Below, one piece after another: positions 23,038-61,257 of a stretch of DNA of 64,000 nucleotides. How positions within the stretch are numbered: the stretch's first letter is position 1; every line of letters begins with the position of its first letter. The notes below the pieces were generated by a model, which saw nothing but the letters and a program-made list of their open reading frames with translations, was not told the DNA's origin and did no database searches. Origin of the DNA: Pirellula sp. (GTDB taxonomy: Bacteria; Planctomycetota; Planctomycetia; Pirellulales; PNKZ01). The position numbers and the translations under genes are program-made. The DNA lies in contig PNKZ01000002.1 in NCBI GenBank assembly GCA_013822735.1, forward strand, positions 310,001-374,000. The letters run 5' to 3'.

Positions 23038-25131
23038 ATGGAAAGCGTTTCGATGCGTCCTGCAATTTTTCGTGCGGCTCAAGTGCGCACGGTCGCGATG
23101 GTCGCCGTCGCACTGTCGTGGTTCGCGGCCTGCGAAGCTTGGGCTGCCGAGCCCATCGTCAATTCGCTCGGCATGCGACTGGTTCCGGTCCCGGCCGGTT
23201 CGTTCACGATGGGCCAGGCCGGGCCGCCGACCGACTACAAGCTGATGAAGCATGCCGACAAATTCGACGACGCCGATTGGGACGAACGGCCGACCCACGA
23301 AGTGCGGATCGCCACGCCGTTTCACATCGGCGCGACCGAAGTAACGCTCGGCCAGTACCGCAAGTTTGCTCCCAAGCATCGGGGCGGTCGGGGCGACGCC
23401 GATGAAGCGGCCCGGGGCGTGTCGTGGCATGATGCGGTGAAGTTCTGCGAGTGGCTCTCCGAACGGGAAAAGAAAACCTATCGCCTGCCGACCGAGGCCG
23501 AATGGGAGTACGCCTGCCGCGCGGGAACGACCACGCTGTTTCACATGGGCGACGCGTTGCCGGCCGGCCATTTGGTGTGGTTTCGCGACAGCGGCTTCCT
23601 CGATCGCTATTTCCCAGGCGGCAAGCTGCCGGCCGAGTATCGCTACAGCAACGACGAACCAAAGCTCCCGGTCGGCCGCACGACGGCGAACGCGTGGGGC
23701 TTGTACGACATGCACGGTAACGTCGCGGAATGGTGCCACGATTGGTACGGCCCCTACGAAACGGCGTCGCAAACCGATCCGGTCGGCCGCATCGACGGCG
23801 ACTTCCGCGTGATCCGCGGCGGCAGCCATACCACGTTCACGCGATTGCTGCGGTCGGCGAATCGGGCCGGCTGGATTCCGGAAGCGGTGAACGAAAAGAC
23901 CGGCTTCCGTGTGGTGCTCGGTGAGTTGCCGAAGACGGAGCCGACGCCCGTGGCCGAACCGCCGCTCAACGCGCGTGACGTGTCGCAGAGTTTGCCGAAG
24001 TTGCAAGCCGTGTCGGCGGAGACGCCCGTGTTTGCCGGCCCAAAGCCGTTTGTGATCATCCCTCCCGATTCGTACGGGCCGCTTTTCTCATGGCATAACC
24101 ACAGCCCGGCAATTGCGGAATGCCCGAACGGCGACTTGCTGACCGTGTGGTATTCGTGCGTGGAAGAGCCGGGGAGTGAGCTCAACAATCTGGCGAGCCG
24201 GCTGCGCCTCGGGGCGGAAGAATGGGAACCGGCGAGCGTGTTTTGGGACGGCCAAGACGTCAACGATCATGCGCCGAAGCTCTGGTGGGACGGCGACAAG
24301 ACGCTCTGGCATTTCGCACGCGGATTCACCGAGAACATCTACCGCACGTCGACCGACAACGGCGCCACCTGGTCGAAGGCGATCGTCATGCAACCGTACG
24401 GCGAAATCGGCAATGAGCTCCTGCGCACCAAGGCGGGACATCTGATCTTCACGCACGATTCGCAATCGACGTCGCTCGTCATCAGCCACGACGGCGGCAA
24501 GACCTGGACCTACACGGATCCGAAGAAGCGCAAGAGCGACTACCGTAGCGGCGGCACCGGCTTTCGCCACTCGGGCATCCATGCGCCGATCGTCGAATTA
24601 GCCGACGGCCGGCTCATGGCGTTTAGCCGCGATAATGAACCGGAGGCCCAAGCGAAGTACGACGGCAAGGCGCCGTTTTGCTTCACGGCCGACGAAGGGA
24701 AAACGTGGACGTACGAGGCGTCGCCGTTTTCGGCCATCAGCAGCGTCCAACGTCCGGTAATGATCCGCCTGCGTGAAGGGCCGCTGCTGCTTTGTACGTT
24801 CACGGATCAGCGGCGCGATTGGGACAAACGCAAAGGGATGAAGTTTAAGAGCGCCGACGGGAGCGAGTTCACCGGCTACGGCATCTTCGCAGCGCTCTCG
24901 TTTGACGAAGGGAAGACCTGGCCGCAACGCCGGCTGATCACGCCGGGGGGCAAACCGCGCGAGATTCCCTCCATTGATCGAGGCATTGCGGAACTCAGCG
25001 ATACGATGAGCGAGTCCGCGGCGTACTTGGCCTGCTGTCAATCGCGCGACGGTATGATTCAACTCATTACGAGCAAGAATCACTACGCGTTTAATCTCGC
25101 GTGGCTGAAATCGCTGCCGAGTGTGAAATAA
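23038..25131 (+). CDS. Secreted SUMF1/FGE-fold domain fused to sialidase-like propeller
   Basis: A 697-residue exported two-domain protein. A signal peptide (residues 1-38, ending EAWAAEP) is followed by an SUMF1/formylglycine-generating-enzyme-like domain (about residues 40-300): NSLGMRLVPVPAGSFTMG, THEVRIATPFHIGATEVTLGQY, YRLPTEAEWEYACRAGT, WGLYDMHGNVAEWCHDWYG, RVIRGGSH, TGFRVVL. The pair of active-site cysteines of true FGE is absent (RSANRAGW in that place), so it is probably a binding or structural domain. From about residue 340 a BNR/sialidase propeller follows with four Asp boxes: STDNGATW, SHDGGKTW, TADEGKTW and SFDEGKTW. Substrate unknown; sialic-acid or other glycan cleavage is a guess from the fold. 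Confidence 0.8.
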   Translation: MESVSMRPAIFRAAQVRTVAMVAVALSWFAACEAWAAEPIVNSLGMRLVPVPAGSFTMGQAGPPTDYKLMKHADKFDDADWDERPTHEVRIATPFHIGATEVTLGQYRKFAPKHRGGRGDADEAARGVSWHDAVKFCEWLSEREKKTYRLPTEAEWEYACRAGTTTLFHMGDALPAGHLVWFRDSGFLDRYFPGGKLPAEYRYSNDEPKLPVGRTTANAWGLYDMHGNVAEWCHDWYGPYETASQTDPVGRIDGDFRVIRGGSHTTFTRLLRSANRAGWIPEAVNEKTGFRVVLGELPKTEPTPVAEPPLNARDVSQSLPKLQAVSAETPVFAGPKPFVIIPPDSYGPLFSWHNHSPAIAECPNGDLLTVWYSCVEEPGSELNNLASRLRLGAEEWEPASVFWDGQDVNDHAPKLWWDGDKTLWHFARGFTENIYRTSTDNGATWSKAIVMQPYGEIGNELLRTKAGHLIFTHDSQSTSLVISHDGGKTWTYTDPKKRKSDYRSGGTGFRHSGIHAPIVELADGRLMAFSRDNEPEAQAKYDGKAPFCFTADEGKTWTYEASPFSAISSVQRPVMIRLREGPLLLCTFTDQRRDWDKRKGMKFKSADGSEFTGYGIFAALSFDEGKTWPQRRLITPGGKPREIPSIDRGIAELSDTMSESAAYLACCQSRDGMIQLITSKNHYAFNLAWLKSLPSVK

Positions 25132-38319: not shown

Positions 38320-40383
38320 CTAGCTCGCCAACCCGGAGCGGGTGCGTAGGAAGAGCGGCTCCAGCGCCCCGGCGGCGGCAGGTTTGATCAAATGTTCGTC
38401 GAAGCCGGCCTCGCGCGAGCGGCGTCGGTCTTCCGATTGTCCGTAGCCTGTGAGTGCGACCAGAATCGTTGAGGCGAATTGCGGCTTTTCACGCAGGCGA
38501 CGGGCGATGTCGTAGCCGCTCAGTCCGGGCAAACCGATGTCGAGAAAGATCACGTCGGGCCGGAAACTTTCGGCCGCTTCCACAGCCTTGAGGCCGTCGT
38601 GCTCGACCAAGGTTTCATGTTGCCAGAACCGCTCAAGCAGCGTCGCCAAAGTTTGCGCCGAGCCGACGTTGTCTTCAACGATGAGCACGCGCAGGCGTGG
38701 GACCGTGCCAGACGGTCGGGCGGCCGGCGATTTCGCCGGGAGTTCTGACAATTTATCCAGAGATAAGTGCACGGTAAATTCAGCGCCGTGCTCGGGGCCG
38801 TTGCTATGCACCTCGACCGTGCCGCCGTGCATTTCGACGATACTGCGGACGACGGTGAGTCCGATCCCGAGTCCCCCTTGCGCACGTTCGATGGTCCGAG
38901 CCGATTGCGTAAAGAGGTCGAAGATTTTCGGCAAGAGTGCGGGCTCAATTCCCATTCCTTGATCGCGCACCGTGACTGCCACGCCGCCGGGCTCCAACTC
39001 GGCCTCGACGTCGATTGTGGTTTTCGGCGGCGAGTATTTGGAGGCGTTTTGCAGCAGGTTCACCAGTACTTGGCACAATCGCACGAGATCGCCATAGAGC
39101 GGCACGGGAGCATCCGGCATACGAACCTGGAGTGTTTGTTGGCGCTCGTCGCAAATCGGACGAACCGTTTCGACGGCACGGTAGACGACGTCCTCCAGCG
39201 ACACGCGCTCCATGCGCAATTCGATTTTACCCCGCATGATGCGTGAGACATCGAGCAAGTCGTCGACCATGTGGACCATGTGTTCCACTTGCCGCGACAT
39301 GATCGGCAGTAATTCTTGTCGCGTTTTTTCGTCGTCGCCGAAGCTATTAAGAATCGTCAGAGCATTGCGGACCGGCGCCAACGGGTTGCGTAGCTCATGA
39401 CCGAGCATTGCCAGGAACTCGTCTTTTCGGCGATCGGCGTCTCGCAACTCGGCATGAAGCCGTGCGTTGTCGACCGCGACGGCGATACGCCGGCCGAGGT
39501 CTTCGGCCATTTCGAGATCCGCCTGTTGGAATGTCGGATGGTCTGCGGCAGCGCCGAAAAGCACGCGTCCGATCAAACGCGAGCGGATTATGAGGGGAAC
39601 GCTGAGCATGGAATCGGCGGCAAAACGAATCTCGGAGTTCGCATTGTTCGGGGCGCTGGAGAGATGCGATTTTGCATCGTCGTCCGTAGGCGCGAGCGTC
39701 TGCGCCCAATTCGTCAGCTCGGCCCTTTGCGATGCATCCGTGTGCACACAAACACTCCGCGCCGGATGCTCTGCCTCCTTCATGACGTCGATCACGCACC
39801 AAGAGGCGAAACGCGGCACCGCAAGTCGAGCGACGATTTGCAGCGTGCTTTCCAGATCGATGAGCCGGACCAGCGCCTCGCTTGCTTCGGCGAGAAAGTG
39901 GAAGCGGCTCTCCGCGCGTCTGCGTTCTTCAATCTCGCCTTGCAACGATTCGTTGGCCGCGTGCAATTCGGCGGTTCGAGCTTTGACATCCCTTTCCAGC
40001 GCCTCGGGACTTCGCATAGCGAGCACCCGAGGTACGTTCGGGATCAATGCAAACACGGTCGCCCAAGAGACGAGAGCCGTCGTGAGTTTGATGAGGCCCG
40101 AGAGCCGATAGGCCGGCCACCAGAAGATGACGGCGTCCATCAGATGCGTCGTGCCGCAGGCGAGGATGAAAGCGCCGAAGAGCAGGAACACCATGCGAAA
40201 CGGCAGGTCTTTCTTTCGCGCCGCGAAATAGACGAGGATTCCCGGAATGGTGAAGTACGCGGCCCAAATCGCGCCGTCGGAAAGGATGTGCAACCATCCA
40301 TGCACGGTCGTCCAGCCGGAACCACACGACCAGCGGGGTGGGAAGCCCGTCGTGTCGAACAGACGCCAAAAGTAGTCGAGCAT
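38320..40383 (-). CDS. Hybrid histidine kinase with ethylene-receptor transmembrane domain
   Basis: A 687-residue membrane sensor. Residues about 30-115 form three transmembrane helices identical in layout to the ethylene-binding domain of plant ETR1: HILSDGAIWAAYFTIP holds Asp36, Tyr43, Ile46 and Pro47, and FGAFILACGTTHL holds Cys76 and His80. The spacings Asp-Tyr 7, Pro-Cys 29 and Cys-His 4 equal those of ETR1 (Asp25, Tyr32, Pro36, Cys65, His69). Then follow a coiled segment, a GAF-type domain (about 150-300), HisKA with EFLAMLGHELRNPLAPVRNAL, the ATPase domain (DQGMGIEPALLPKIF, GGLGIGLTVV) and a C-terminal receiver with VIFLDIGLPGLSGYD. Likely a copper-dependent ethylene or related ligand sensor. 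The ATG at 40383 is chosen as start. It is adjacent to the phytochrome operon. Confidence 0.92.
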   Translation of the reverse strand: MLDYFWRLFDTTGFPPRWSCGSGWTTVHGWLHILSDGAIWAAYFTIPGILVYFAARKKDLPFRMVFLLFGAFILACGTTHLMDAVIFWWPAYRLSGLIKLTTALVSWATVFALIPNVPRVLAMRSPEALERDVKARTAELHAANESLQGEIEERRRAESRFHFLAEASEALVRLIDLESTLQIVARLAVPRFASWCVIDVMKEAEHPARSVCVHTDASQRAELTNWAQTLAPTDDDAKSHLSSAPNNANSEIRFAADSMLSVPLIIRSRLIGRVLFGAAADHPTFQQADLEMAEDLGRRIAVAVDNARLHAELRDADRRKDEFLAMLGHELRNPLAPVRNALTILNSFGDDEKTRQELLPIMSRQVEHMVHMVDDLLDVSRIMRGKIELRMERVSLEDVVYRAVETVRPICDERQQTLQVRMPDAPVPLYGDLVRLCQVLVNLLQNASKYSPPKTTIDVEAELEPGGVAVTVRDQGMGIEPALLPKIFDLFTQSARTIERAQGGLGIGLTVVRSIVEMHGGTVEVHSNGPEHGAEFTVHLSLDKLSELPAKSPAARPSGTVPRLRVLIVEDNVGSAQTLATLLERFWQHETLVEHDGLKAVEAAESFRPDVIFLDIGLPGLSGYDIARRLREKPQFASTILVALTGYGQSEDRRRSREAGFDEHLIKPAAAGALEPLFLRTRSGLAS

Positions 40384-40686
40384 GCTTTGCGGCCCGGATG
40401 GCAAGGAGAATTTCGATGTCGCGCCGAACGATTAGCTCAGGCCCGTATGTCGCCTAAACTTCGACATGTCCGAGCTTGCTGCGTTGTATGCCTAAGTCAG
40501 CACCGTGTCGACGTTTATCGCCGGCCTAGGAAATCGTCGGCGTCGATTCTATCCCGTAGTCCTCGAATCGGGCTTCTGCAGATTGTGGTCGATCATTGAC
40601 CACCCGCCCCAACGAACGTCGGCTTCGCGCAGTCGTCCAGAATCACGCAGTGAAGCTGCGTAAGATCTCGGCCGATTTCTCGCGGC
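40384..40686. other. 303-base gap before the ethylene-type kinase
   Basis: No gene with recognisable features is seen. Being upstream of the leftward kinase gene, it should contain its promoter or a processing site between it and the phytochrome block. No clear -10/-35 pair or operator stands out by eye. Confidence 0.4.
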
Positions 40687-41265
40687 CTACTTGCGGTCGA
40701 GGGAGTTGGCGAGCGCCTCGCCAACTTGCTGCACGTCGGTTTCATTGACCGAGCCGAAAGCAAAACGGGCCGCGATTTTTCCACGATATCCGACGATTGC
40801 CACCAACTGCACGTCGTTGCCGGGTTGCCAACCTTCGGGCCCTTCGGCATCCGCAAATACGCCGAGACTCGACTTCTGCAGTTGGAGTGATTGCTGCACG
40901 CGCGGTAGATATTCCTTAGTGGCATCCACCTCGGCACTGAGCCAAATGGCACGGATTTCCGCGGTCGCACTGTAGCCCGACAGCTTCTCATCGAGTGTTT
41001 TCAGGAATCGGGCCACGGGGCGATCCCAACGCGCGCTTGGTATCAACAGGTATACAACCGGCTTAGCGGCTGCTGCTTGAGCCGCATCGATCTGCGCATA
41101 GCTGCCGTCCGCTTGCAGCAACTCGACGTTGAGAGGCTTTGCAGTCGTGCCGATCGCGACATCGTCCGCAGTAAGCGGCGTCGTGCAAAGCGCAATGGCG
41201 GCGGCAAAGGCCAGGAGATGCCGGAGCGTGCTGAGTGAACGACAATCGAGTAGTTCGGTGTGCAT
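40687..41265 (-). CDS. Exported thioredoxin-fold protein without a CxxC motif
   Basis: A 192-residue protein with a signal peptide (MHTELLDCRSLSTLRHLLAF, cleavage after about CTTPLTA). The mature part, with IGTTAKPLNVELLQADGSYAQID, KPVVYLLIPSARWDRPVARFLKTLDEK and GWQPGNDVQLVAIVGYRGKIAARFAFG, has the strand-helix pattern of AhpC/TSA or TlpA relatives. The catalytic cysteines are missing, so it is not a redox enzyme of the usual kind. It starts 82 bases after bphO on the same strand and could be co-transcribed with it. Function not known. Confidence 0.55.
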   Translation of the reverse strand: MHTELLDCRSLSTLRHLLAFAAAIALCTTPLTADDVAIGTTAKPLNVELLQADGSYAQIDAAQAAAAKPVVYLLIPSARWDRPVARFLKTLDEKLSGYSATAEIRAIWLSAEVDATKEYLPRVQQSLQLQKSSLGVFADAEGPEGWQPGNDVQLVAIVGYRGKIAARFAFGSVNETDVQQVGEALANSLDRK

Positions 41266-41346
41266 TTTCCATCTCTTGGGTGTGCTGCGCGGCAATCCGT
41301 CCGATGAATCTAACCGCGGGGCGATGGGAATGTTTCGCCGATCCAC

Positions 41347-41982
41347 TTATTGCATTTGGGAAACGTCCGAATTCTGGGGCAGGCCCGAAACAGTGATGGG
41401 CTTCGCAACCAACCACGCATGCAAATGTTCAAAAGTCGCCACAGCCGCCGCAGCTGCGGCACCGTACGAATCGCGTGGAACTGCAACTGTGGCGGCTACG
41501 GCGAACTCCGACCATTTTTTTCCTACGTCGCGACCATAGCACGAGAAGTACGACAATCCGCCGCCGGGCAGAAGGCCCCATTTTGCTCGAAAATGTCGCG
41601 CCAGTATTTCTCCTCCCAGCGTCGATCCTTCGACGACATACCAAGATCCCCACGCGTCCGCGGCAGTGCTCAAGCGCGGAAGGCAATCTCGTGGCGCGGT
41701 TCGCAATAGCGAGTCCTTCGCAACGTCGGCGAGCTCGCGTTCGTGCGCAAATCGCAAGTCGTCGACAAGTAATTCTGATTTCCGTCGGGCGTCGAACATC
41801 GCGCGGTCGGCCGATCCGAGTAATGCCCCGACTTGCATTTCCCAAGGAGCGATAAAGGCGTACATGCTTCGCAACAACTGAAAATAGTCGCGTCGGGTTA
41901 GGTCCGCTCGTAAGAGGTCGAGATCGCTCTCCAATCGCTCATGAGCTTGCGCCGTCGCTTGTCGTAGTTTCGCCAACAACAT
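41347..41982 (-). CDS. bphO: Heme oxygenase (biliverdin-producing)
   Basis: A 211-residue all-helical enzyme that cleaves heme to biliverdin, CO and iron. TAQAHERLESDLDLLRADLT near the N terminus gives the proximal heme-ligand His14. AWGSWYVVEGSTLGGEILARHF near residue 110 is the distal helix (GSxxGG) signature of BphO. Biliverdin is the chromophore of bacteriophytochrome, and the bphP gene lies in the same leftward block, two genes upstream. Only 10 bases separate it from the preceding hybrid kinase gene. The TTG-rich region after it leads to the thioredoxin-fold gene. Confidence 0.9.
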   Translation of the reverse strand: MLLAKLRQATAQAHERLESDLDLLRADLTRRDYFQLLRSMYAFIAPWEMQVGALLGSADRAMFDARRKSELLVDDLRFAHERELADVAKDSLLRTAPRDCLPRLSTAADAWGSWYVVEGSTLGGEILARHFRAKWGLLPGGGLSYFSCYGRDVGKKWSEFAVAATVAVPRDSYGAAAAAAVATFEHLHAWLVAKPITVSGLPQNSDVSQMQ

Positions 41983-41992
41983 ATCCGGTCAC

Positions 41993-43924
41993 CTAATTCG
42001 AACTCTTTGCGACGCCGTCTGTGAGCGTGATGTTGCGCATGACGTCGGTTAGTAGCGTCCGCAATTCTTGAGGGTCGGTCGGCTTGACAAAATGGTGATG
42101 GAAGCCGGCCTGTGCCGTCCGCCGTCGATCTTCTTCCCCGCCATAGCCTGTAAGCGCCACGACGCGAACCTTGCGCAGGGGTTCTAATTCGTGCACCTGA
42201 CGAATCACTTCGAACCCGTCCATTCCCGGCAGCCCTAGGTCTAAAAGCATGAGCTGCGGGGGGCGGTCGACGGCAAGTTGGAGCGCTTCGTGCCCGTTAT
42301 ATGCCGTGGCCACATCGCAACCCCAGAGACGCACGAGCATCGCCAGCGTGGCGGCCGAATCATGATTGTCGTCGACGATGAGAACGCGTAGGCGTTTGTC
42401 GAATTTTGTCGGCGGTTCCATGGGGCGTTCACCTGGCCGGGGGTTTGCGGCCGCTTGTTCCGCAGCGATGGGAATTCGTAGGGTAAACTCGCTCCCTTGG
42501 TTCAGGCCGGAACTCTGCGCCTCGACGACGCCGTCGTGCATTTCCACAATCCGGCGTACGAGCGTGAGCCCGATTCCCAAACCTCCTTGCGCACGGTCGA
42601 GCGTTCGATCCGCTTGCGTGAAGAGCTCGAAAATCGAAGTGAGCGCGTCGGGTGCGATGCCGATTCCATCGTCACGGACCTTAATCAAGGCTTGGCCCTC
42701 TCGGGCTTCCAGCATGATGTCGATGGTTCCTCGGTTCGGAGTAAACTTCGCCGCATTCACCAGCAGATTGATGACGACTTGAGCCAGGCGATTGCCGTCG
42801 CCGAAAACGTAGATGTCGGCATTCGGCGTGCTGGTCCGCAAACAGTGTTCGCGAGCGTCCATCAGAGGCTTCGCAGCTTCCACGGCCCGAGCGATCACGT
42901 CGTTGAGCGAAGTCGGTTCGCGTCGCAAGACGATTTTGCCGCGCGTGATCCGCGACACGTCGAGCAAGTCATCGACGAGTCGAACCATGTGGTCGACTTG
43001 CCGCGTCATGACTTCGGCGGCGCGTTGGAGCGGCACATCGAGCGATCCATCCATTTTTAACACGTGCAACGCGTTGCGAATCGGCGCCAACGGGTTGCGC
43101 AACTCGTGCGCCAACATCGCCAAGAACTCGTCTTTTCGTTGATCGGCTTCACGCAAGGCGTTCTCCGCCTGCTTGCGTTCTCGGATATCGCGAACGAATG
43201 CTTGCGTTCGTCCGTCCGGCATGGACCGAGCCCGAACTTCGACCGGTAGGAAGCTTCCGTCCGCGTGGCGCAATTCCCATTCGCCGGAGTGCATGCTGCC
43301 GGAATCACCGAACGCGGTTCGCAGTTGCTCGAAGCGGGGAAGTTCACTTTGTTGCAGCAAATCCACCGCCGGCCGACCGAGCAGTTGTTCGCGACTCCGG
43401 CCCAGCATTTCACAACCGCTGCGATTTACGTCGACGAGCTTCCCCTCCGAATCGGCAATGAATATTCCGTCGGGGGCGTCTTCCACAAGCTGGCGATATC
43501 GCTGCTCGACGATCTTCAATTCCGATTCGATGCGTCGTTTGTCGCGCCGTTCTTCGACTAACTTTACGGCATCACGCACGGCGGGCAACAGCCGATCGAG
43601 CCGTTGCTTGAGGACATAGTCGTTGGCCCCGAGCTTGAGCATATCGACTGCTAATTCCTCGCCGAGCGTCCCCGATACGAAGATAAACGGCGTGTCGAGG
43701 TCGAGCGACCGAACGAGCCGAAGTGCGGCGCGGCCGTCGTAGTCGGGCAAGGTGTGGTCGGCCAAAATCAAATCATATTTCTTCGCGCTCACGGCATTTT
43801 CAAACTCGCGGCGCGAAACCGCGATCTCAAGTTGGAAGCTTAGACCGCTGTCGCGCAGACGTTCGCGCACCAACTCCGCATCGTTGCGGCTGTCTTCCAA
43901 CAGGAGTATTTGAAAATCGGACAC
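41993..43924 (-). CDS. Hybrid histidine kinase, REC-PAS-HisKA-HATPase-REC
   Basis: A 643-residue soluble two-component protein with no transmembrane helix. An N-terminal receiver (phospho-acceptor Asp56 in LILADHTLPDYDG) is followed by a PAS domain (about 125-245, with DAPDGIFIADSEGKLVDVNRSGCEML). Next come HisKA with EFLAMLAHELRNPLAPIRNAL (about residue 275) and the ATPase domain (DDGIGIAPDALTSIF, GGLGIGLTLV). A C-terminal receiver carries PQLMLLDLGLPGMDGFEV. The GTG at 43924 is chosen because AGGGG stands 8 bases before it. It lies 96 bases after the response regulator and 10 before bphO, so it probably relays the phytochrome signal. Confidence 0.9.
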   Translation of the reverse strand: MSDFQILLLEDSRNDAELVRERLRDSGLSFQLEIAVSRREFENAVSAKKYDLILADHTLPDYDGRAALRLVRSLDLDTPFIFVSGTLGEELAVDMLKLGANDYVLKQRLDRLLPAVRDAVKLVEERRDKRRIESELKIVEQRYRQLVEDAPDGIFIADSEGKLVDVNRSGCEMLGRSREQLLGRPAVDLLQQSELPRFEQLRTAFGDSGSMHSGEWELRHADGSFLPVEVRARSMPDGRTQAFVRDIRERKQAENALREADQRKDEFLAMLAHELRNPLAPIRNALHVLKMDGSLDVPLQRAAEVMTRQVDHMVRLVDDLLDVSRITRGKIVLRREPTSLNDVIARAVEAAKPLMDAREHCLRTSTPNADIYVFGDGNRLAQVVINLLVNAAKFTPNRGTIDIMLEAREGQALIKVRDDGIGIAPDALTSIFELFTQADRTLDRAQGGLGIGLTLVRRIVEMHDGVVEAQSSGLNQGSEFTLRIPIAAEQAAANPRPGERPMEPPTKFDKRLRVLIVDDNHDSAATLAMLVRLWGCDVATAYNGHEALQLAVDRPPQLMLLDLGLPGMDGFEVIRQVHELEPLRKVRVVALTGYGGEEDRRRTAQAGFHHHFVKPTDPQELRTLLTDVMRNITLTDGVAKSSN

Positions 43925-44020
43925 GACCGCGACCCCTATGTACAAATGCTTCGACAAACGTGGAGACTTCGGCTTGATCTCGCTTTAGCGGAAATCTTGG
44001 GAAACGGAGCGATCAGTTGG

Positions 44021-44497
44021 TCAGCTCGCGGGCGCATCGGCAAATCGCGGCTTAACGCTGCCGGGCGGAGGCTCATTGAGCACCGCCCAAAACATGCCGA
44101 GCGATTGAATGGCCTCGATAAAGTCGGGGAACCCCACCGGCTTAACCACGTAGGCGTTCACGCCGAGCCTGTAGCTGTTGATCAAGTCTTGCTCTTCGCG
44201 CGACGACGTCAAAATCACGACCGGCAGTGACTGCAGCGCGGAATCGGAACGAATGGCCTTCAAGACTTGAATACCGTCGAGCTTCGGTAGCTTGAGATCG
44301 AGCAATACGACGGCCGGATTGCCTTGCGGTCGCTCGGTCCAATTGCCGCGCCGCATCAGGTAATCAAGCGCCTCGACGCCGTCGCGCGCCGTCACGACGT
44401 CGTTCGCCAAGTTGCTCTTGGCCAGTGCGACGAGCGTGAGTTCCAAATCCTTCGGGTTGTCTTCCACCAATAAGATGGGTTTGAGTAAGTTCGTCAT
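44021..44497 (-). CDS. Single-domain response regulator (Rcp1-type) coupled to bphP
   Basis: A 158-residue receiver. PILLVEDNPKDLELTLVALAK (acidic pair at the end of beta1), AVVLLDLKLPKLDGIQVLK (phospho-acceptor Asp about residue 65), LPVVILTSSREEQDL (Thr/Ser) and AYVVKPVGFPDF (Lys) are all intact. The length and the RGNW...RPQGNP insert before beta3 are those of Rcp1/CphA-type regulators paired with phytochromes. Its ATG (44497) overlaps the bphP stop by four bases, so it is translated with the photoreceptor and should be its direct target. It has no output domain, so the signal must go on through protein contact or the hybrid kinase. Confidence 0.93.
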   Translation of the reverse strand: MTNLLKPILLVEDNPKDLELTLVALAKSNLANDVVTARDGVEALDYLMRRGNWTERPQGNPAVVLLDLKLPKLDGIQVLKAIRSDSALQSLPVVILTSSREEQDLINSYRLGVNAYVVKPVGFPDFIEAIQSLGMFWAVLNEPPPGSVKPRFADAPAS

Positions 44498-46722
44498 GGC
44501 TTCGACTTCGGTAATGAAAAAGTAAACTCGGCACCGCAATCGACGGCCCCTTGGGCCCATGCGCGACCGCCATGCCGCGCCATGATTCGTTGTACGTTTG
44601 CGAGGCCGATGCCTGTTCCTTCAAAGTCCTCCATCCGATGCATACGTTGGAACACGCCGAAAAGTTTGTCGGCATACGCCATATCAAAACCGACACCGTT
44701 GTCGCGCACCGAAACCATGTACTCGTGCGGAGTTTCTTGGGCCCGCACGGTGATGACGGCGTCGCTGCGCGTTCGGGTGAATTTCACCGCATTGGAAAGC
44801 AAATTGTGTGCCACCGACTGAAGCATCGAAGGATCGGCTTCTACCGTGGGTAAATCGCCGATATTCCAGGTTATCCGTCGACCGCGCGCGTCGAGCATCG
44901 CGTCGGTCTGCGCGATCCGAAATACCTCGTTCAAATTGACCGGCCGCTTTGCCAGTTTGGTCCGACCCATGCGCGAGTACGCGAGCAGGTTGTCGACTAA
45001 CTGGCCGGCAGTTTCGGCCGAGTCGGCAATGATCTGCAAGTGCCGTCGATCGTCGTCTGTAAGTCGCTCCGCAGCGCGCTCGCGGAGGAGCTCGCTATAT
45101 CCGACGATGTGCCGAAACGGTGCGCGCAGGTCATGCGACACCGAATAACTGAACGCCTCTAGTTCTTTGTTGCTTCGTTGCAACTCGGCGGAAAGGTCGG
45201 CGTTCTCTTCGGCCGTTCGCAACACGATGCCGATGATCGAATTACGGAGATCGGCGAGCGCTTCCCGTTCGGCGGAGGTAAAGCGTGCCGAATGTCCGCG
45301 CACGGTCTCTTTCCAAACTTCGAACGATTTGCGCGGGTGCAAACGCTCTTGCCCCGGCACGCGCGGCGGCTTGCGCGGGTCGCCCGCCCAGTGCACGGTC
45401 GTCGTCTTTTCATCGCGGAACCATAGCACGAAACTGGGATGCAGCTTCGATATGGAAATCGCGGCCATTCCCGCCGGGCACTGCGGAATGTCGCGCGTGA
45501 ACGGGAGTTCCGTGGTCAAACAATCCGTCGTCACGACGTCCGAGTTCCCATGTTTTGCCAGGTGTTCGGCGATGCGAATGAGTTGATGTTCGTCGGGGGT
45601 TCGCCCGACGGTCAACGTCTTCTGATCGACAACGACGGCCGCTCCGCTCGCGTCGGCGAATTCCAGCAGTGCCTGTTTGTTCTCCACCAGACCGGCCGAG
45701 TAGTCGGTTCCGTGGCCCGCCATGGAAGTCAACAATTGCGACTCAAGCGATCTCAACTTGACGCGGCGCTCCGCCTCCGCGGCCCGTTCGTGCGTTTCGA
45801 TTTGCAATGACAGGATCTGCGCGACGAAGTCGCAGGCCGCGCGCACCGCGAACGGCACAAAGCGCGGCTCGGTATGATGGCAGGCAATCAATCCCCAAAG
45901 TCGACCGCGATTCACCACGGAAATCGACATCGATGCCGCCGTCCCCATGTTGCGCATGTATTCCAAATGAACGGGGGACACGCTGCGCAACACCGCGTAG
46001 GTGAGGTCCAGAGGACCTTCGTCATTCGCGTTCGGCGAAGGAACGATGGGTACCGGAATGTAGTTCGCATCCAGGATCAATCGCACGCGGTTGAGTCGAT
46101 ACAACTCCCTAGCCTGAGCAGGAATGTCGTCGGCCGGAAATCGCAATCCCAGGTACCCGGGCAGAAGGTCGTTCCCCGATTCGGCGATGGTCGTGCCGTG
46201 CTGATCTTCGTCGAATTGGTAGAGCAGCACTCGATCGAATCCGGTCAGTTTGCGAATCTTTCGAACAGCCGCGTCTTGCGCGACCGACGCGTCGTCGGAT
46301 GCCTGCAAAGCCGCCAAAAATTCCGTCGACTCCGCGTGGAGTTGCTCCAGTCGGAAATCCGAGGTCGCCGCGGTGCGCTCAAATTCCAAGATGAGTTTGC
46401 CCGCATGTCGATGCGCAAGGGCGAGATATTCGCCGCCGCCCGTGGGACCGACGATTCCCAATTGTTGCGGGCTATTGCCGATCGAGGCTTGCGACAGGAG
46501 CGCTCGCCACGAAACCCCGTTCACGGGGGGCAAAAAGTCGTCGATGGAGCGATCATACGGCGACGGCACTTCAAGGATGGCGGCGGCATTCGCACTCGCC
46601 AGCGTCACCCGAAAGTCGGGTTCGCTTAATACGAGCAGAAATCCGTGTGGTTGGATGCTGCCGGGAATGCGAATCGGTTCATGTTCGCATCCGGTCGTAT
46701 CGACCGTCTGAGGAAACTCCAT
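44494..46722 (-). CDS. bphP: Bacteriophytochrome histidine kinase
   Basis: A 742-residue red/far-red light sensor. Cys12 in the N-terminal extension (TGCEHEPIRIPGSIQPHG) is the biliverdin-attachment residue of BphPs. PAS2 spans about residues 20-120 and GAF about 140-310, with FDEDQHG and the chromophore-contact DIP motif at residues 199-201 (FPADDIPAQARELYRLNR) and the His pair in LIACHHTEPRF. PHY spans about 320-500, with the tongue carrying WAGDP and PRKSF (PRxSF). HisKA (EAFSYSVSHDLRAPF) and the ATPase domain (DNGVGFDMAYADKLF, GTGIGLANVQRI) complete a Cph1-like architecture. First gene of a block including its regulator and heme oxygenase. Confidence 0.97.
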   Translation of the reverse strand: MEFPQTVDTTGCEHEPIRIPGSIQPHGFLLVLSEPDFRVTLASANAAAILEVPSPYDRSIDDFLPPVNGVSWRALLSQASIGNSPQQLGIVGPTGGGEYLALAHRHAGKLILEFERTAATSDFRLEQLHAESTEFLAALQASDDASVAQDAAVRKIRKLTGFDRVLLYQFDEDQHGTTIAESGNDLLPGYLGLRFPADDIPAQARELYRLNRVRLILDANYIPVPIVPSPNANDEGPLDLTYAVLRSVSPVHLEYMRNMGTAASMSISVVNRGRLWGLIACHHTEPRFVPFAVRAACDFVAQILSLQIETHERAAEAERRVKLRSLESQLLTSMAGHGTDYSAGLVENKQALLEFADASGAAVVVDQKTLTVGRTPDEHQLIRIAEHLAKHGNSDVVTTDCLTTELPFTRDIPQCPAGMAAISISKLHPSFVLWFRDEKTTTVHWAGDPRKPPRVPGQERLHPRKSFEVWKETVRGHSARFTSAEREALADLRNSIIGIVLRTAEENADLSAELQRSNKELEAFSYSVSHDLRAPFRHIVGYSELLRERAAERLTDDDRRHLQIIADSAETAGQLVDNLLAYSRMGRTKLAKRPVNLNEVFRIAQTDAMLDARGRRITWNIGDLPTVEADPSMLQSVAHNLLSNAVKFTRTRSDAVITVRAQETPHEYMVSVRDNGVGFDMAYADKLFGVFQRMHRMEDFEGTGIGLANVQRIMARHGGRAWAQGAVDCGAEFTFSLPKSKP

Positions 46723-46906
46723 ATCCCGCGCCTAACCTCGAAACGAATCGCTTTTTTCTACGATGCGCGCCACCGCTCATCGCTCTTGGGAGAACCTTCG
46801 AATTCGCTTGACATGCGTGGGCATTCTATCGGACGATCACGGTATGCGGCGGTGGTTGAAATCTGACCATCGCCTCGCGAATTGGCTATTTTTGGGTCAT
46901 TGCAGC

Positions 46907-48469
46907 ATGCTTAGTGATAACGTCGGATCCTCGCGTCGCGATGTCTTGAAAGGGGCGCTGGCGGCATCCGTGGGGGCCATGGTATTGCCGGCAGATGGGC
47001 ACTCCGCGGCGCAAGGTAAGCCGAAAGCTGCGAGCGGCGAAGTCGATTGCCCGATCGTCGTCGAGAACGCACTTTCCGGTGCGCGCGATTGGCAACTGAC
47101 GCGCGTGCGACTCGACAAGAGCGGCGGCTATCGCTCGCCGGCGATCGAAGGATTTTGCTCGCACCAAAGTATCGAAGTCGGCGAGACGCTGCGGATCTTC
47201 GTAAGCACCGAGCCGGCGGCGCCGTTTCAGATCGAGATCTTCCGCATGGGCTACTACGGCGGTGCCGGGGCCCGACTGATGAAGACGATCGGGCCGTTGG
47301 AAGGTAGAGCGCAGCCGGTGCCCCCGATGGGCCCGAACCGCGTACATGAGTGCGCGTGGAAGCCGTCCGTTTCATGGGAGATTCCGCCAGATTGGCGAAG
47401 CGGCGTCTATCTCGGCCGACTGTCGACGCTTACCGGGCACGACGGTTCCGGATATTGGCAAAGCTACGTGATCTTTATCGTTCGCGATCGCCGTCGGGCC
47501 GACGTGCTGTTTCAGTGCTCCGACAATACTTGGCAGGCCTACAATCGCTGGCCCAACGACTTCTCGCTCTATACGCATCCCGAAGGTGCGCATCACCCGG
47601 GCGTCGCGGTCTCGTTCGATCGTCCTTATGCCCGGTATCCGCAAATCGTCGAAGCGCCGCAATCGGTCGGCTCGGGCGAGTTTCTCTTGTGGGAATATCC
47701 GCTCTGCTATTGGCTTGAGCAGCAAGGGTACGACGTCACGTATTGCTCGAACCTGGATATGGTCGATTCGCAGCAACCGCTGCGCAGCAAGGTCGTGTTG
47801 AGCGTCGGTCACGACGAATATTGGGACCTGCGACAATACGAGACTTTGCAAAATGCCGTCCAGCAAGGGGTGAGCATTCTGTTTCTCTCGGCGAACACGG
47901 CTTACATGGTGTCGCCGTTTACGCCAAGTGCGGCGGGCGCGGCCGATCGCATCATCACGCGCACCGCGAGCTTCGGCCCAATGTCGGACGAGGAGACGAA
48001 GGCCTACGGCCACATGATGGGCCCGTTCCCGTCGGCGGGGCCAGATGAAGCGCTCCTCATCGGCGCACGAACGACGGTCCCCTTTAACGGGTGCGGCGAT
48101 TGGATTTGCACGCGACCGGAACATTGGATGTTTGCAGGGACCGGCATGCGACGCGGCGACGCGGTGCCTGGCTTGGTGGGTTGGGAGTTTCATGGCGATC
48201 CGGCAAACATTCCGGGCCTGGAGGTTGTCGGGGAAGGAACGGTGCTTTCCGGCGGCGTCAAGCCGGGGCATTGGACGTCGACGATCTATCCCGGCCCTAA
48301 GCAGAATTTCGTCTTCAACGCTTCGACGATTTGGTGGGCCCAAGGTCTCGCCGCACCGCCGGGACATATGCTACCTTGGTCTCATTGGTCACGGCCGCAC
48401 GGACCCGACGATCGGGTGCAACGCATGACGCACAATCTATTGCGGCGCGCGCTCGGCCGTGAGGCGTGA
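46907..48469 (+). CDS. Tat-exported N,N-dimethylformamidase large-subunit-like protein
   Basis: A 520-residue protein with a twin-arginine signal (SSRRDVLKGALAASVGAMVLP, near residues 7-30). The mature chain contains the dimethylformamidase beta-subunit-like pattern: VGETLRIFVSTEPAAPFQIEIFRMGYYGGAGARLM, PVSWEIPPDWRSGVYLGRL-type strand, VLFQCSDNTWQAYNRWPN, LEQQGYDVTYCSNLDM, VVLSVGHDEYWDLRQYE. The single subunit without a small subunit is like many environmental homologues, whose substrates are unknown. The ATG at 46907 places the Tat motif correctly; earlier in-frame codons give a longer N terminus of different composition. Divergent from bphP. Confidence 0.7.
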   Translation: MLSDNVGSSRRDVLKGALAASVGAMVLPADGHSAAQGKPKAASGEVDCPIVVENALSGARDWQLTRVRLDKSGGYRSPAIEGFCSHQSIEVGETLRIFVSTEPAAPFQIEIFRMGYYGGAGARLMKTIGPLEGRAQPVPPMGPNRVHECAWKPSVSWEIPPDWRSGVYLGRLSTLTGHDGSGYWQSYVIFIVRDRRRADVLFQCSDNTWQAYNRWPNDFSLYTHPEGAHHPGVAVSFDRPYARYPQIVEAPQSVGSGEFLLWEYPLCYWLEQQGYDVTYCSNLDMVDSQQPLRSKVVLSVGHDEYWDLRQYETLQNAVQQGVSILFLSANTAYMVSPFTPSAAGAADRIITRTASFGPMSDEETKAYGHMMGPFPSAGPDEALLIGARTTVPFNGCGDWICTRPEHWMFAGTGMRRGDAVPGLVGWEFHGDPANIPGLEVVGEGTVLSGGVKPGHWTSTIYPGPKQNFVFNASTIWWAQGLAAPPGHMLPWSHWSRPHGPDDRVQRMTHNLLRRALGREA

Positions 48470-48517
48470 GCAGGTAAGCTCCGTCGCGTCGGGCAATCGA
48501 GAAGCAAGGCCGCACTC

Positions 48518-50659
48518 GTGGTCGTGGAACCTGAACCGTCGTCGGAATCCGTCGTCGATGACGACGTCGATATGGCCGACGCCGCTTCACGAGTGGTGAT
48601 GTCGCCGGCACCGCCTCCGAATCCTCGTCGCGGACAGTTTCTCTTCGGACTGCTGCTCGCCGCAATCTGCTTCTTTGTCTACCGCGGCACGTTTGCGTTC
48701 GACCTCCTGACGTGGGACGACAACCAACACGTCACCGAGAACGAATACTTCCAGAAGCTCACTTGGCGAAGTTGGGCTCATTTCTGGGCTTACTCGTACA
48801 TCTTTCTTTACATCCCCGTCAGCTACAACTTCTTCGCATGCGAAGTGTGGATCGCCCAATGGTTCCCGACCGGTGATCCGGCACACCCGATGAACCCGGC
48901 GGTGTTCCATATCGGTAACGTGCTCGTGCATCTCGGGTGCACGCTCGCGGCCTATCGCCTGATGGTCCGGCTCACGTGCAATGCCTGGGCGGCGTTTTTC
49001 GGTGCACTCTTGTTCTGCGTTCATCCGCTACAGGTCGAAAGCGTCGCCTGGGTCGGTGAAACTCGCGGTACGCTCAGTACGCTCTTTTCGTTCCTGGCCG
49101 CGGGGCTCTATTTGCGTTATGTCGGACTGAACCCGACGGCAGGCATGTTTGCCGACGCGGCGTACGAACCCCTTCAGCGCCGTAGCCGCGACTATTGGCT
49201 GGGGCTGCTCTGTTTTGGTTTGGCCCTACTTTCGAAGCCGTCGGCCGCGTCATTGCCGCTGATCCTGCTTGTGATCGACGTCATTCTGCTGCGCCGATCG
49301 TTGCTCAGAGCGATCTATCATTTGATCCCATGGTTCGTCGCTGCGGCCGTTATCACGCTGATGACCAAGTACTACCAAAAAGACTCGTACATGTTCGGCC
49401 CCGCGGTCGCTCCGCTGATTGATCGACCGTTCATTGCCGGAGACGCCTACGCGTTTTACTTGCAGAAGCTCGTCTGGCCGCTGGAAATGGCGTTCGACTA
49501 CGGCCGCACGCCGCATCTGGTGCGGGAATTGCCGGGCTTTTGGCGTGCATGGTTGTTGCCGTCCGTCACGGCGTTAATCTTCTCGATGTGCCCGCGGCGA
49601 CGAGTCTGGCTCGGCTGCTATGCGATCTTCATCGCGGCAATTCTGCCGGTCAGCGGCATCGTGCCGTTTCTTTATCAATCGATCTCGACGACCGCCGATC
49701 GCTATATGTACGTGCCGATGTTCGGCTTCGGCCTTATGGCAGCCGCGTGGCTCGCGACGCGCCGTTCGTCCCTCGCTCCGGCCATCGTCGCAGCCGTGGT
49801 ACTCGGATTACTCGCCCATCGCACGGTCGATCAGTGCCGTTATTGGCGCGACGATTGGGTCGTCTTTCGACACGGCATCGAAGTGAACCCTCTGAGTTAC
49901 ATGGCCCATTTGAATCTCGGCGGGCGCTACCGCAAGGAGAAGCAATACGAACCGGCATTGCGAAACTTCGCGCGTGTGTTGGAGATTCGTCCCGACTACT
50001 TCTGGGCCGACTACGATCGCGGCACTTGTTTCATGGCTCTGCATCGTTACGACGATGCGATCAAGGAGTACAAATCCGCTTTCGATAAGTATCCGTCGGC
50101 CTTTGAGGTGCATGTCGGATTGGCCGATGCCTACAAAGTGAAGGAGCGATTCGACGAAGCGGAGCGTTGGTACCGAAAGGCCGTGAAGACCGCGCCCGAC
50201 AATGTTGTTCCGCACCTCGGATTGGGCGAGTTCCTCATGATGCGCGGTCGAATTGAGGAAGCAAACAAGGAGTTCGACGTCGCCGCCGAACTCGCTCCCG
50301 AATCGCCCGACGTTCCGCGCCGCCGCGGGCGAGCGCTCGTCGAAGCGAACCGCCCTGCGGAAGCGGCGCCTTATCTCGAAGCGTGGGTGGCCGCCGCGCC
50401 CGATTCGGCGGGGGCTCACAATGAGTTGGCGAGTTGCTATTACTTGCTCAGCAAGTTTGCGTTAGCGGTCGAACAAGGCGCCGTGGCCGTGCGGCTCGAT
50501 CCCAAGCTCTTCGAAGCGCAATACAACTACGGGCTCGCGCTCGCCGCCGTCGGAAAAACGGCGGAAGCGCGCACGCAATTCGAACAGGCGCTCGCGTTGA
50601 TTCCCCCCGGCACGAAAACCGCGGCGGAAGTGCGCGAGTCGCTCGATTCGCTACGTTAG
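48518..50659 (+). CDS. TMTC-like GT-C membrane glycosyltransferase with TPR tail
   Basis: A 713-residue protein. About 10 membrane helices in residues 40-440 include GT-C hallmarks near the first loop (LTWDDNQHVTENEYF, the DD motif) and FCVHPLQVESVAWVGETRGTLS, which resembles the HPxxxExVAW motif of TMTC O-mannosyltransferases. The C-terminal 270 residues are tetratricopeptide repeats (NLGGRYRKEKQYEPALRNFARVLEIRPDY and similar) facing the periplasm. The start is a GTG at 48518; a GTG six bases later or an ATG at 48572 is also possible. Likely role: lipid-linked glycosylation of envelope proteins. The stop overlaps that of the convergent isomerase gene. Confidence 0.75.
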   Translation: MVVEPEPSSESVVDDDVDMADAASRVVMSPAPPPNPRRGQFLFGLLLAAICFFVYRGTFAFDLLTWDDNQHVTENEYFQKLTWRSWAHFWAYSYIFLYIPVSYNFFACEVWIAQWFPTGDPAHPMNPAVFHIGNVLVHLGCTLAAYRLMVRLTCNAWAAFFGALLFCVHPLQVESVAWVGETRGTLSTLFSFLAAGLYLRYVGLNPTAGMFADAAYEPLQRRSRDYWLGLLCFGLALLSKPSAASLPLILLVIDVILLRRSLLRAIYHLIPWFVAAAVITLMTKYYQKDSYMFGPAVAPLIDRPFIAGDAYAFYLQKLVWPLEMAFDYGRTPHLVRELPGFWRAWLLPSVTALIFSMCPRRRVWLGCYAIFIAAILPVSGIVPFLYQSISTTADRYMYVPMFGFGLMAAAWLATRRSSLAPAIVAAVVLGLLAHRTVDQCRYWRDDWVVFRHGIEVNPLSYMAHLNLGGRYRKEKQYEPALRNFARVLEIRPDYFWADYDRGTCFMALHRYDDAIKEYKSAFDKYPSAFEVHVGLADAYKVKERFDEAERWYRKAVKTAPDNVVPHLGLGEFLMMRGRIEEANKEFDVAAELAPESPDVPRRRGRALVEANRPAEAAPYLEAWVAAAPDSAGAHNELASCYYLLSKFALAVEQGAVAVRLDPKLFEAQYNYGLALAAVGKTAEARTQFEQALALIPPGTKTAAEVRESLDSLR

Positions 50660-53742: not shown

Positions 53743-53850
53743 AGGAGTTGATGGATCGCATGGTTCACGCGTCGCGAGCGACGCGGCTAACATCGAACTA
53801 AGAACAATGAACTTAAGAACCCTGAACTCTCAACCTTGAACCCTGAACCG

Positions 53851-56800
53851 TTAGGAGCAGCCCATGCTCGCTCCGCAGTTGTGGCAGAGGTAGCAGTTGC
53901 CGGCTCGAACGCAGATGGAGCCGCAGTTGTCGCAACTCGGGGCGTCGCTTTGGAAGCCGGCGAACTGTTCGCTGCGGTTCGTCATGTTGCCGGAGTTCAG
54001 CACTTTGAGATCGAACTTCGGGGCGATTCCGGCACGCAGCAGGACGTCGTCGGCTTCGGCCTTCGCCAAATCCGCCTTCGCCGTTTGCTCCGTGGCCTTG
54101 GCCGCTTCCGCCTTGGCCGGCTTGGCAGCCGAACCATTGGCATGGCTACCGTTGGCCTTCGTGGCCGACCCGTTCGCGCTCAGCCCACCAGCCTTCTTGG
54201 CGGTGGGCGCCGATTGCCCCGACGCATCATCTCCTTCCGACGACTTGGCCGCGGGCGGTTTCTCGCCGTTGGTCGCTTCGCGGAAGCCTTCGAGGAAGGT
54301 GACGCCGAGGAACCGCACGATGTAGTCGACGACGCTCTTGGCGATCTTGATATCGGGGTTCTTCGTGTAGCCCATCGGCTCGAATCGCATATGCGAGAAC
54401 TTATTCACATAGGCTTCGAGCGGCACGCCGTATTGCAGGCCCATCGAGATGGCCGTACCGAGCGAATCCATCAAGCCGCCGACGGTGCTGCCTTCTTTGG
54501 CCATGGTGATGAACACTTCGCCCGGCTTGCCGTCTTCGTAAAGCCCGACGGTGAGGTAGCCTTCGTGGCCGCCGACCGAGAACTTGTGCGTAATCGAGTT
54601 ACGCGTATCGGGCAGGCGACGACGACGAGGACCGGCCGCCTTGGCCGCCTTGTCCGCGGTCTTGCTTTCTTCGCTGCTCGTGTTGAGCGGCTGGCTTTCC
54701 TTCGAGCCGTCGCGATAGATGGCCAAGGCCTTGAGGCCCATACGCCAACCTTCGGTGTAGGCTTCAGCGATGTCTTCCGGCGTGCTCTCACGCGGCATGT
54801 TCACCGTCTTCGAGATGGCGCCCGAAAGGAACGGCTGAGCCGCGGCCATCATCGAAACGTGCGCGTGCCAGGCGATGCTACGGGTACCGTTGCGCGGGGA
54901 GAACGCACAGTCGAACACCGGCAGGTGCTCCGCCTTCACGGCCGGGGCCCCTTCAATGGTGTCGTTCTTGTTGATGTAGTCCAGAATGCCGTCGATCGTC
55001 GGTTGGTCGTAGCCGAGCTTCTTCAGCGCGGCAGGAACCGTGTTGTTGACGATCTTGAGCATGCCGCCGCCGGCGAGTTGCTTATACTTCACGAGCGCGA
55101 TGTCCGGCTCGATGCCGGTCGTATCGCAATCCATGAGGAAGCTGATCGTGCCGGTCGGCGCGAGCACCGTGGCCTGAGCGTTGCGGAAGCCGTGCACACG
55201 GCCGGCCGCGAGCACTTCGTCCCACAGATCGCAAGCCGCTTCCTTCATATAGGCCGGGCAGGCCGGATCGATCTTGTCGGCCGCATCGCGATGCATCCGC
55301 ATGACGCCCAACATCGGGTCGCGGTTTTCAGCAAAGCCGTCGAACGGACCGACCGCCGCGGCGAGTTCGGCGCTCGTCAGGTTGCCGGCACCGTGCAACA
55401 GAGCGGTGATCGCTCCGCACACGCCGCGAGCGCCGTCGGAGTCGTACGGCAGGCCGCTCGACATGAGCAAGCTGCCGAGGTTCGAGTAGCCGAGGCCGAG
55501 CGGGCGGAACTTGTGGCTGTTGGCCGCAATGCGCTTCGTCGGGTAGCTGGCGTGGTCGATCAAGATTTCTTGAGCGATGAAGAACAGCCGGCAGGCGTTG
55601 CGGAACCGTTCGACGTCGAACGAGCCGTCGGCTTGGCGGCACTTCATCAAGTTGATGCTCGCCAGATTGCAAGCCGTGTTGTCGAGGAACATGTACTCGC
55701 TGCACGGGTTGCTGCCGTTGATGCGGCCGGAGTTCGGGCAGGTGTGCCACTTGTTGATCGTGGTGTCGTACTGCACGCCCGGATCGCCGCACTGCCAAGC
55801 GTTGGCGGCCATCTTGTTCATCAGTTCGCGAGCTTGGTACGTCGGGCCGGCGATCTTGGGGTTGGTCACCCAATGCGTGGTCCAAGGGCCGTCGGCGGCA
55901 CAGGCTTGCATAAACTCGTCGGTGACGCGCACCGAGAGGTTGGCATTCTGGAACATCACCGAGCTGTACGCTTCGCCGTTGAAGTTGGCGTCGTAGCCGG
56001 CGGCGATGAGCGTGCGGGCCTTCTTTTCTTCCTTCGCCTTGCACTCGATGAATTCGAGAATGTCCGGGTGCCAGATCTTCAGCGATTGCATCTTGGCCGC
56101 GCGACGGGTCTTGCCGCCGCTCTTCACCACGGCCGCGATTTGATCGTAGACTCGCATGAACGAGAGGGGCCCGGAAGGCTTGCCGCCGCCGGAGAGCTTT
56201 TCGCGTTCCGAGCGGAGCGTCGAGAGGTCGGTGCCGGTGCCGGAGCCGAACTTGAAGAGCATGGCCTCGCTGCGCGCGAGCTCCATGATGTCTTCCATAT
56301 TGTCTTCAACGCTTTGGATGAAGCAGGCCGAGCCTTGCGGGTATTCGTACGGGTTTTCCGGAATGCGGACTTGTTCGGTTTCTTGGTCCCAGTGCCAGTT
56401 GCAGGCCGCACCCTTCACGCCGTATTGGTGGAAGAGGCCGACGTTGAACCAAACGGGCGAGTTGAAGGCGCCGTGCTGGTGGAGGCAGAGCCAGGAGAGG
56501 TCGCGGTAGAAGCGCTCGCCGTCTTCGTTGGTGGCGAAGTAGCCGTCTTTGATGCCCCAGTCCGCGATGGTGCGCGTGACGCGGTGGATCAGTTGCTTCA
56601 CGCTGTACTCGCGCTGCGGCGTATTGATTTCGCCGTAGTAGTACTTGCTGCAAACGACGTTCGTGGCCAACTGCGTCCAGAACACCGGCACTTCGCAATT
56701 GGTTTGCTCGAAGAGCACCTCGCCGTTTTCGCCTTTGATGGCGGCGGTGCGGGTTTCCCATTGCACGGTGTCGAACGGACTGGCGACGTCGGTCGGGCAA

Positions 56801-56892: not shown

Positions 56893-56956
56893 GAAGAAAC
56901 CCTTGAGAAAGGAGCGGGTGACGAGGGGCATCCATACCACTTGCGCACGGATTAAA

Positions 56957-61164: not shown

Positions 61165-61257
61165 GACGATACCCGTACGCGACGAGAGGTTGGCTTCGCC
61201 GAACGGCCGCGATTCCTCGGTGAAATCGCGGCTGCAGCGGAGTCGGAAGTGTGCGTT

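Follow-up and report, generated by a model that had tools for sequence, protein, structure and literature searches.

The window, by which we mean the whole stretch of 64,000 nucleotides of Pirellula sp. DNA that was analyzed, encodes on its reverse strand a hybrid histidine kinase with an N-terminal domain of the type found in the plant receptor ETR1. The gene and its parts are as follows.

38320..40383 (-), gene for the ETR1-type hybrid histidine kinase, 687 aa from ATG, with an alternative TTG at 40404
39988..40383 (-), ETR1_N transmembrane domain of the ethylene-binding type, residues 1-132 (PF25487, E = 7e-37; AlphaFold2 pLDDT 91.5)
40312..40335 (-), branch signature R17-W18-x-C20-G21...W24, N-terminal to helix 1 (alignment)
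40216..40308 (-), helix 1, residues 26-56, with D36, Y43, I46, and P47 (alignment and AlphaFold2 model)
40129..40197 (-), helix 2, residues 63-85, with I73, C76, and H80, of which C76 and H80 are predicted Cu(I) ligands
40018..40110 (-), helix 3, residues 92-122, with K99, T102, and S106 (model and alignment)
39466..39855 (-), GAF domain, residues 177-306 (PF13492, E = 3e-6; PF01590, E = 6e-5)
39235..39426 (-), HisKA dimerization/phospho-acceptor domain, with H329 in GHELRNP
38755..39093 (-), HATPase_c catalytic domain with N, G1, and G2 boxes
38362..38688 (-), receiver domain, with phospho-acceptor D615 in IFLDIG

The open reading frame covers 38320-40404 (-) when read from the TTG and 38320-40383 (-) when read from the ATG. 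The proteins of relatives start at the same ATG, and the shorter span is therefore the better gene model; it is also the one given in an earlier note on this DNA, which had the coordinates right. Pfam profiles place the domains in the order ETR1_N, GAF, HisKA, HATPase, receiver, which is that of ETR1. The kinase boxes H, N, G1, and G2 are intact, as is D615, the aspartate of the receiver. The match to the ETR1_N profile scores 126 bits against a cut-off of 27 and covers profile positions 2-97 of 97. The window copy is the sole ETR1_N domain in its own 6.9-Mb genome, and the gene is kept in 4/4 genomes of the genus. Named close relatives of the domain come from Planctomycetaceae MAGs (68-78% identity) and from a MAG of the Chthoniobacteraceae (Verrucomicrobiota; 68%). 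Two features elsewhere in the window may be recorded here: open frames of more than 1000 codons occupy both strands at 53836-56955, the + strand product being without a Pfam match, and at 23038-25131 (+) a sulfatase-modifying-factor (FGE) domain is fused to a BNR-repeat domain.

Mutation has identified seven residues of ETR1 that are needed for ethylene binding (D25, Y32, I35, P36, I62, C65, and H69), and Lys91 has been tied to receptor output. When the window domain is aligned to ETR1, D36, Y43, I46, P47, C76, and H80 (numbered from the ATG) fall on D25, Y32, I35, P36, C65, and H69 with identical spacing. Two more key residues, absent from the earlier note, also align, I73 with Ile62, the seventh ethylene-binding residue, and K99 with Lys91, the signaling lysine, so that the window domain holds 7/7 of the ethylene-binding residues. 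In the ETR1 sequence used, all eight anchor positions land on the right letters at their published numbers. As an independent check, the AzoEtr1 sequence was taken from the Azospirillum brasilense Sp7 plasmid record, and this gene carries the same eight residues (D35, Y42, I45, P46, I72, C75, H79, and K98) in a protein of 525 aa, a length and a placement of D35, C75, H79, and K98, as read from the gene, that are also those of the published account (PMC11819568). ETR1 and AzoEtr1 were thus compared directly, and SynEtr1 was represented in the alignment by other cyanobacterial domains.

Across the bacterial homologs, all eight letters are found in 64/94, and the positions of C65 and H69 are kept in 90 or 91 of the 94. 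Because the ETR1_N match has an E value of 7e-37 and the residues are conserved among these 94 homologs, the resemblance to ETR1 is not a matter of chance. A few planctomycete members of the family (for example L021, L024, L061, and L062) are recognized by the ETR1_N profile despite the loss of copper or pocket residues, and the family therefore includes domains that are probably unable to bind Cu(I) and ethylene in the way that ETR1 does.

An AlphaFold2 model of the domain, built with 19 aligned homologs, has a pLDDT of 91.5 and helices at residues 26-56, 63-85, and 92-122, and the hydropathy peaks are confined to the same three regions. Three membrane helices can be predicted with confidence from this model. 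No solved relative of the domain was found, either by sequence or, at E <= 0.001, by fold, in agreement with the published statement that no ETR1 homolog had a solved structure (PMC6586836). The earlier note had described the protein as a hybrid histidine kinase bearing an ETR1-type copper domain, with six residues at exactly the ETR1 spacing, and had given a better alignment with some unrelated sensor fold as an outcome that would speak against it. The spacing holds in the alignment, and the description as a whole is borne out by the identity of the domain, the seven residues, the three-helix model, and the full ETR1 domain order. That outcome did not materialize, as no other Pfam family spans the domain and the structure search gave no match at that threshold. 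The further suggestion that the kinase might sense ethylene or a related ligand is likewise supported and, as far as sequence can indicate, appears well founded.

We consider it probable that the gene encodes a bacterial ETR1-type receptor kinase whose activity responds to ethylene, or to an olefin about as small, bound at Cu(I). The best-supported reading is a kinase of the cytoplasmic membrane that senses ethylene by means of Cu(I); we infer the copper, the binding of ethylene, and the passage of the signal to the kinase from ETR1, SynEtr1, and AzoEtr1. Within a dimer, the three N-terminal membrane helices would use C76 and H80 to ligate Cu(I), which ETR1 is reported to bind at a ratio of one per monomer (PMC6586836). 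Ethylene, or a small olefin of like size, would bind at the Cu(I), and the helices would shift on binding, with K99 and D36 acting in the relay. The shift would change kinase activity at H329, from which phosphate would move first to D615 in the receiver of the same protein and then to a separate regulator. Two copper-ATPase genes above the family cut-off lie elsewhere in the genome, but because such genes are near-universal (they are also present in 14/14 control genomes), they say little about the copper cofactor. As a separate observation, the region 57655-62670 (-) of the window holds an AcrB-type RND pump gene and, adjacent on the same strand, a gene for an HlyD/CusB-type membrane-fusion protein.

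The position of the domain within its family may bear on the identity of the ligand. A tree built from 93 domains has a branch with support of 99/98 that separates two sets. One side comprises ETR1, two domains each from cyanobacteria and alphaproteobacteria (AzoEtr1 being among the latter), and some from planctomycetes. The window domain lies on the other side, where it is joined by the majority of the planctomycete domains, several from Bacteroidota, and one from Verrucomicrobiota. A smaller tree, from which the longest rows were left out, again places it in a separate group (n = 22; 99/97), and a tree that forces it together with the ETR1-side rows is rejected (AU p = 0.011, for a group chosen after the first tree was seen). 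By the 93-domain tree and the AU test, then, the window domain is not grouped with the receptors proven to bind ethylene, all of which, to our knowledge, fall in the other branch. No report of ethylene binding by members of the window's branch was found in the open-licence papers searched.

Both branches keep the ETR1 positions D25, Y32, I35, P36, F58, F61, I62, C65, G66, H69, K91, T94, A95, S98, and P110. The window's branch has extra conserved positions close to the helix ends that are predicted to face the periplasm, namely R17-W18-x-C20-G21, G29-W30-x-H32-I33, A84, and F87. Its signature is PxRWxCGxW, and the predicted periplasmic differences comprise RWxCG, GWLHI, and FWWPxYRLSG, which could alter access to the pocket or the ligand itself. 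The cysteine of the signature, C20, lies on the expected side of the membrane and is conserved in 84/94 homologs. By analogy it may be the counterpart of the N-terminal dimer-forming cysteine of the plant receptors, although a cross-linking role is putative. For cyanobacteria, it has been proposed that a single cysteine does the dimer linking of the plant pair (PMC6682694).

Several Bacteroidota genomes encode short ETR1_N kinases (about 390-540 aa; L143-L148) with the PHGxC N terminus of the proven-receptor branch, which is distinct from the RWxCG type of Dyadobacter, another member of this phylum. In one planctomycete family, several genomes encode ETR1_N proteins of great length (1100-1690 aa; L072-L077, L079, L082, and L083), and six of these loci adjoin a conserved set of non-signaling genes.

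An alternative is that the Cu(I) pocket has been retained in this branch for a different stimulus, whether copper availability, another Cu(I) ligand such as CO or a different alkene, or redox state via C20. That all tested receptors belong to the other branch argues for it, as do the distinct, highly conserved predicted periplasmic signature and the near-invariant extra cysteine, and pocket residues alone cannot separate ethylene from other Cu(I) ligands. Nevertheless, the branch retains every residue mutationally required for ethylene binding as well as the output lysine, and the extra cysteine is common to both branches, being present in 10/10 aligned members of the proven one. We regard this alternative as rather unlikely.

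The reading as an ethylene receptor is compatible with a further proposal, which concerns output and arises from the genes that lie upstream of the kinase on the same strand, listed here in their order toward it.

44494..46722 (-), bacteriophytochrome, PAS-GAF-PHY-HisKA-HATPase (PF00360, E = 5e-49; PDB bacteriophytochrome match, E = 5e-132)
44021..44560 (-), stand-alone response regulator, 179 aa, overlapping the phytochrome gene (Pfam profile)
41993..43957 (-), hybrid kinase, REC-PAS-HisKA-HATPase-REC (Pfam profiles)
41347..41982 (-), heme oxygenase, for biliverdin synthesis (PF01126, E = 3e-7; TAQAHE heme-ligand motif; PDB heme oxygenase match, E = 0.003)
40687..41346 (-), 219-aa protein with no Pfam match, encoded at the end of the cluster and conserved within the genus

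The bacteriophytochrome has the PAS_2-GAF-PHY arrangement, with the N-terminal chromophore-binding Cys12 in TTGCEHEPIRIPGSIQPHG and a PADDIP motif. Light sensing through the receptor's own GAF domain was considered and ruled out, as that domain has no phytochrome-type match and is accompanied by neither PHY nor PAS_2. Divergent neighbors of the phytochrome at 46763-50659 (+) encode a DMFA2_C (N,N-dimethylformamidase-like) protein and a TPR-repeat protein, an association that is kept in two other genomes of the genus.

The proposal is that the ETR1-type kinase and the bacteriophytochrome share the regulator (44021-44560) and the hybrid kinase (41993-43957), such that ethylene and red light act on one output. 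Gene layout is a first line of evidence. In G000, the receptor adjoins the phytochrome cluster; in G001, the cluster order runs on into the receptor from a contig that begins inside the phytochrome gene, and a second contig ends within the same gene and carries its upstream neighbors. G003 has an intact cluster with the receptor on its opposite side, divergent and two genes away, within about 6 kb. Receptor and phytochrome are thus within about 6 kb of each other in 2/4 genomes of the genus; the same probably holds for a third, where a contig break intervenes. However, G002 has the receptor and lacks the phytochrome, and a strict operon is ruled out by the divergent arrangement in G003 and by the gap of 303 bp that separates the 219-aa gene from the receptor start (a search of 40300-40800 for promoter and terminator signals found none, a result that is uninformative). 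It follows from these layouts that the receptor is near the cluster, not locked into its operon.

The partner genes themselves offer a second line of evidence. For the 179-aa regulator and the N-terminal half of the hybrid kinase, the closest relatives found outside the genus lie directly downstream of ETR1_N kinases, in Prolixibacteraceae and Fulvivirga among the Bacteroidota and in Schlesneria (48-58% identity for the regulator). The comparison loci were picked for ETR1_N, however, and similar regulators are found at 31/57 relatives, so this kinship suggests a shared output without showing it.

A third line comes from co-occurrence. Of 392 planctomycete genomes, 42 have ETR1_N and 14 have the PHY domain of phytochromes, and 10 of these genomes have the two together. 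The odds ratio is 27, with a Fisher p of 5e-8 that is too small because the genomes are related. ETR1_N is thus present in 10/14 phytochrome genomes compared with 42/392 overall, whereas for CHASE, a sensor domain used as a control, the odds ratios are 1.9 with ETR1_N and 3.0 with PHY. The association is weaker among the genomes listed for the same order and class (8/9 versus 12/31, odds ratio 12.7, p 0.02), and phytochrome is found in 4/13 named ETR1_N genomes, as two sister pairs. In Bacteroidota, there is no association among 120 genomes (ETR1_N in 7, PHY in 10, both in 1; p 0.47). As a general rule, then, co-occurrence was rejected, since it holds in Planctomycetota and fails in Bacteroidota. 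A light link is plausible because sunlight generates ethylene from dissolved organics (PMC6682694) and SynEtr1 joins both senses in one protein. We infer, more weakly than for the receptor itself, that output is shared with the regulator and hybrid kinase of the neighboring phytochrome; the joint ethylene and red light output is a tentative proposal that we judge rather unlikely.

Finally, a degenerate or inactive sensor, its likeness to ETR1 merely ancestral, is most improbable: some family members have indeed lost pocket residues, as in the four loci described above, but the window copy retains every pocket, kinase, and receiver residue examined, and its gene is kept throughout the genus.

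A working ethylene receptor is the reading that we prefer, and its wider meaning can be set out conditionally. Ethylene is most familiar as a hormone of plants. In bacteria, few receptors for it have been proven, those of Synechocystis and Azospirillum, with Geitlerinema as a further case for which there is evidence. No discussion of ethylene receptors in Planctomycetota was found in the open-licence papers searched. If the branch does bind ethylene, sensing of this gas would extend much wider than plants and their associates, given the presence of the domain in 42/392 planctomycete genomes. The link to phytochrome would echo the cyanobacterial ethylene and light receptor, with two separate proteins replacing one, and if the shared phosphorelay is real, presumably non-photosynthetic bacteria would integrate red light with ethylene, which dissolved organic matter gives off in sunlight. 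The full conjunction would make the branch in Planctomycetota, Bacteroidota, and Verrucomicrobiota a second lineage of functional ethylene receptors, so far undescribed, with the receptor and bacteriophytochrome of this genus feeding the same phosphorelay. It is speculative and, in our estimation, decidedly unlikely to hold in both its parts.

Comparison with known systems shows what is shared and what is new. Arabidopsis ETR1 (subfamily 1) has the same three-helix copper-type domain, seven binding residues, and Lys91, followed likewise by GAF, HisKA, HATPase, and receiver domains. It differs in that only 37/112 aligned domain positions are identical, in its tree branch, and in its location in the ER membrane, whereas the window kinase is presumably in the bacterial cytoplasmic membrane. 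AzoEtr1 of A. brasilense, an experimentally proven non-cyanobacterial ethylene receptor (PMC11819568), is also a bacterial membrane-bound histidine kinase with all eight key residues, and the window receptor is less novel because AzoEtr1 has already been proven outside the cyanobacteria. AzoEtr1 is identical to it at 50/134 domain positions but has a PHGxC-type N terminus, belongs to the proven-receptor branch, and, as described, has a PAS domain and no receiver, whereas the window kinase has a GAF domain and a receiver. Small stand-alone response regulator genes follow AzoEtr1 and many family members, and that of AzoEtr1 overlaps its stop codon (PMC11819568). SynEtr1, or UirS (Slr1212), of Synechocystis, compared here by its description, likewise combines an ethylene-binding domain, a kinase, and a link to light sensing; its light sensor is a cyanobacteriochrome domain within the same protein (PMC6682694). 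In the window, by contrast, the GAF domain is not phytochrome-like (weak PF13492/PF01590 matches), and the light sensor is the product of a separate neighboring gene. The neighbors themselves form a standard photoreceptor cluster with its chromophore enzyme, like those of Cph1-Rcp1 and of bacteriophytochrome, response regulator, and heme oxygenase, but such clusters are usually without an ETR1-type kinase, and in the other planctomycetes examined, heme oxygenase and phytochrome are adjacent with no such kinase. The receptor is thus of a kind already known in bacteria, found here in an uncharacterized branch and an uncommon genetic setting.
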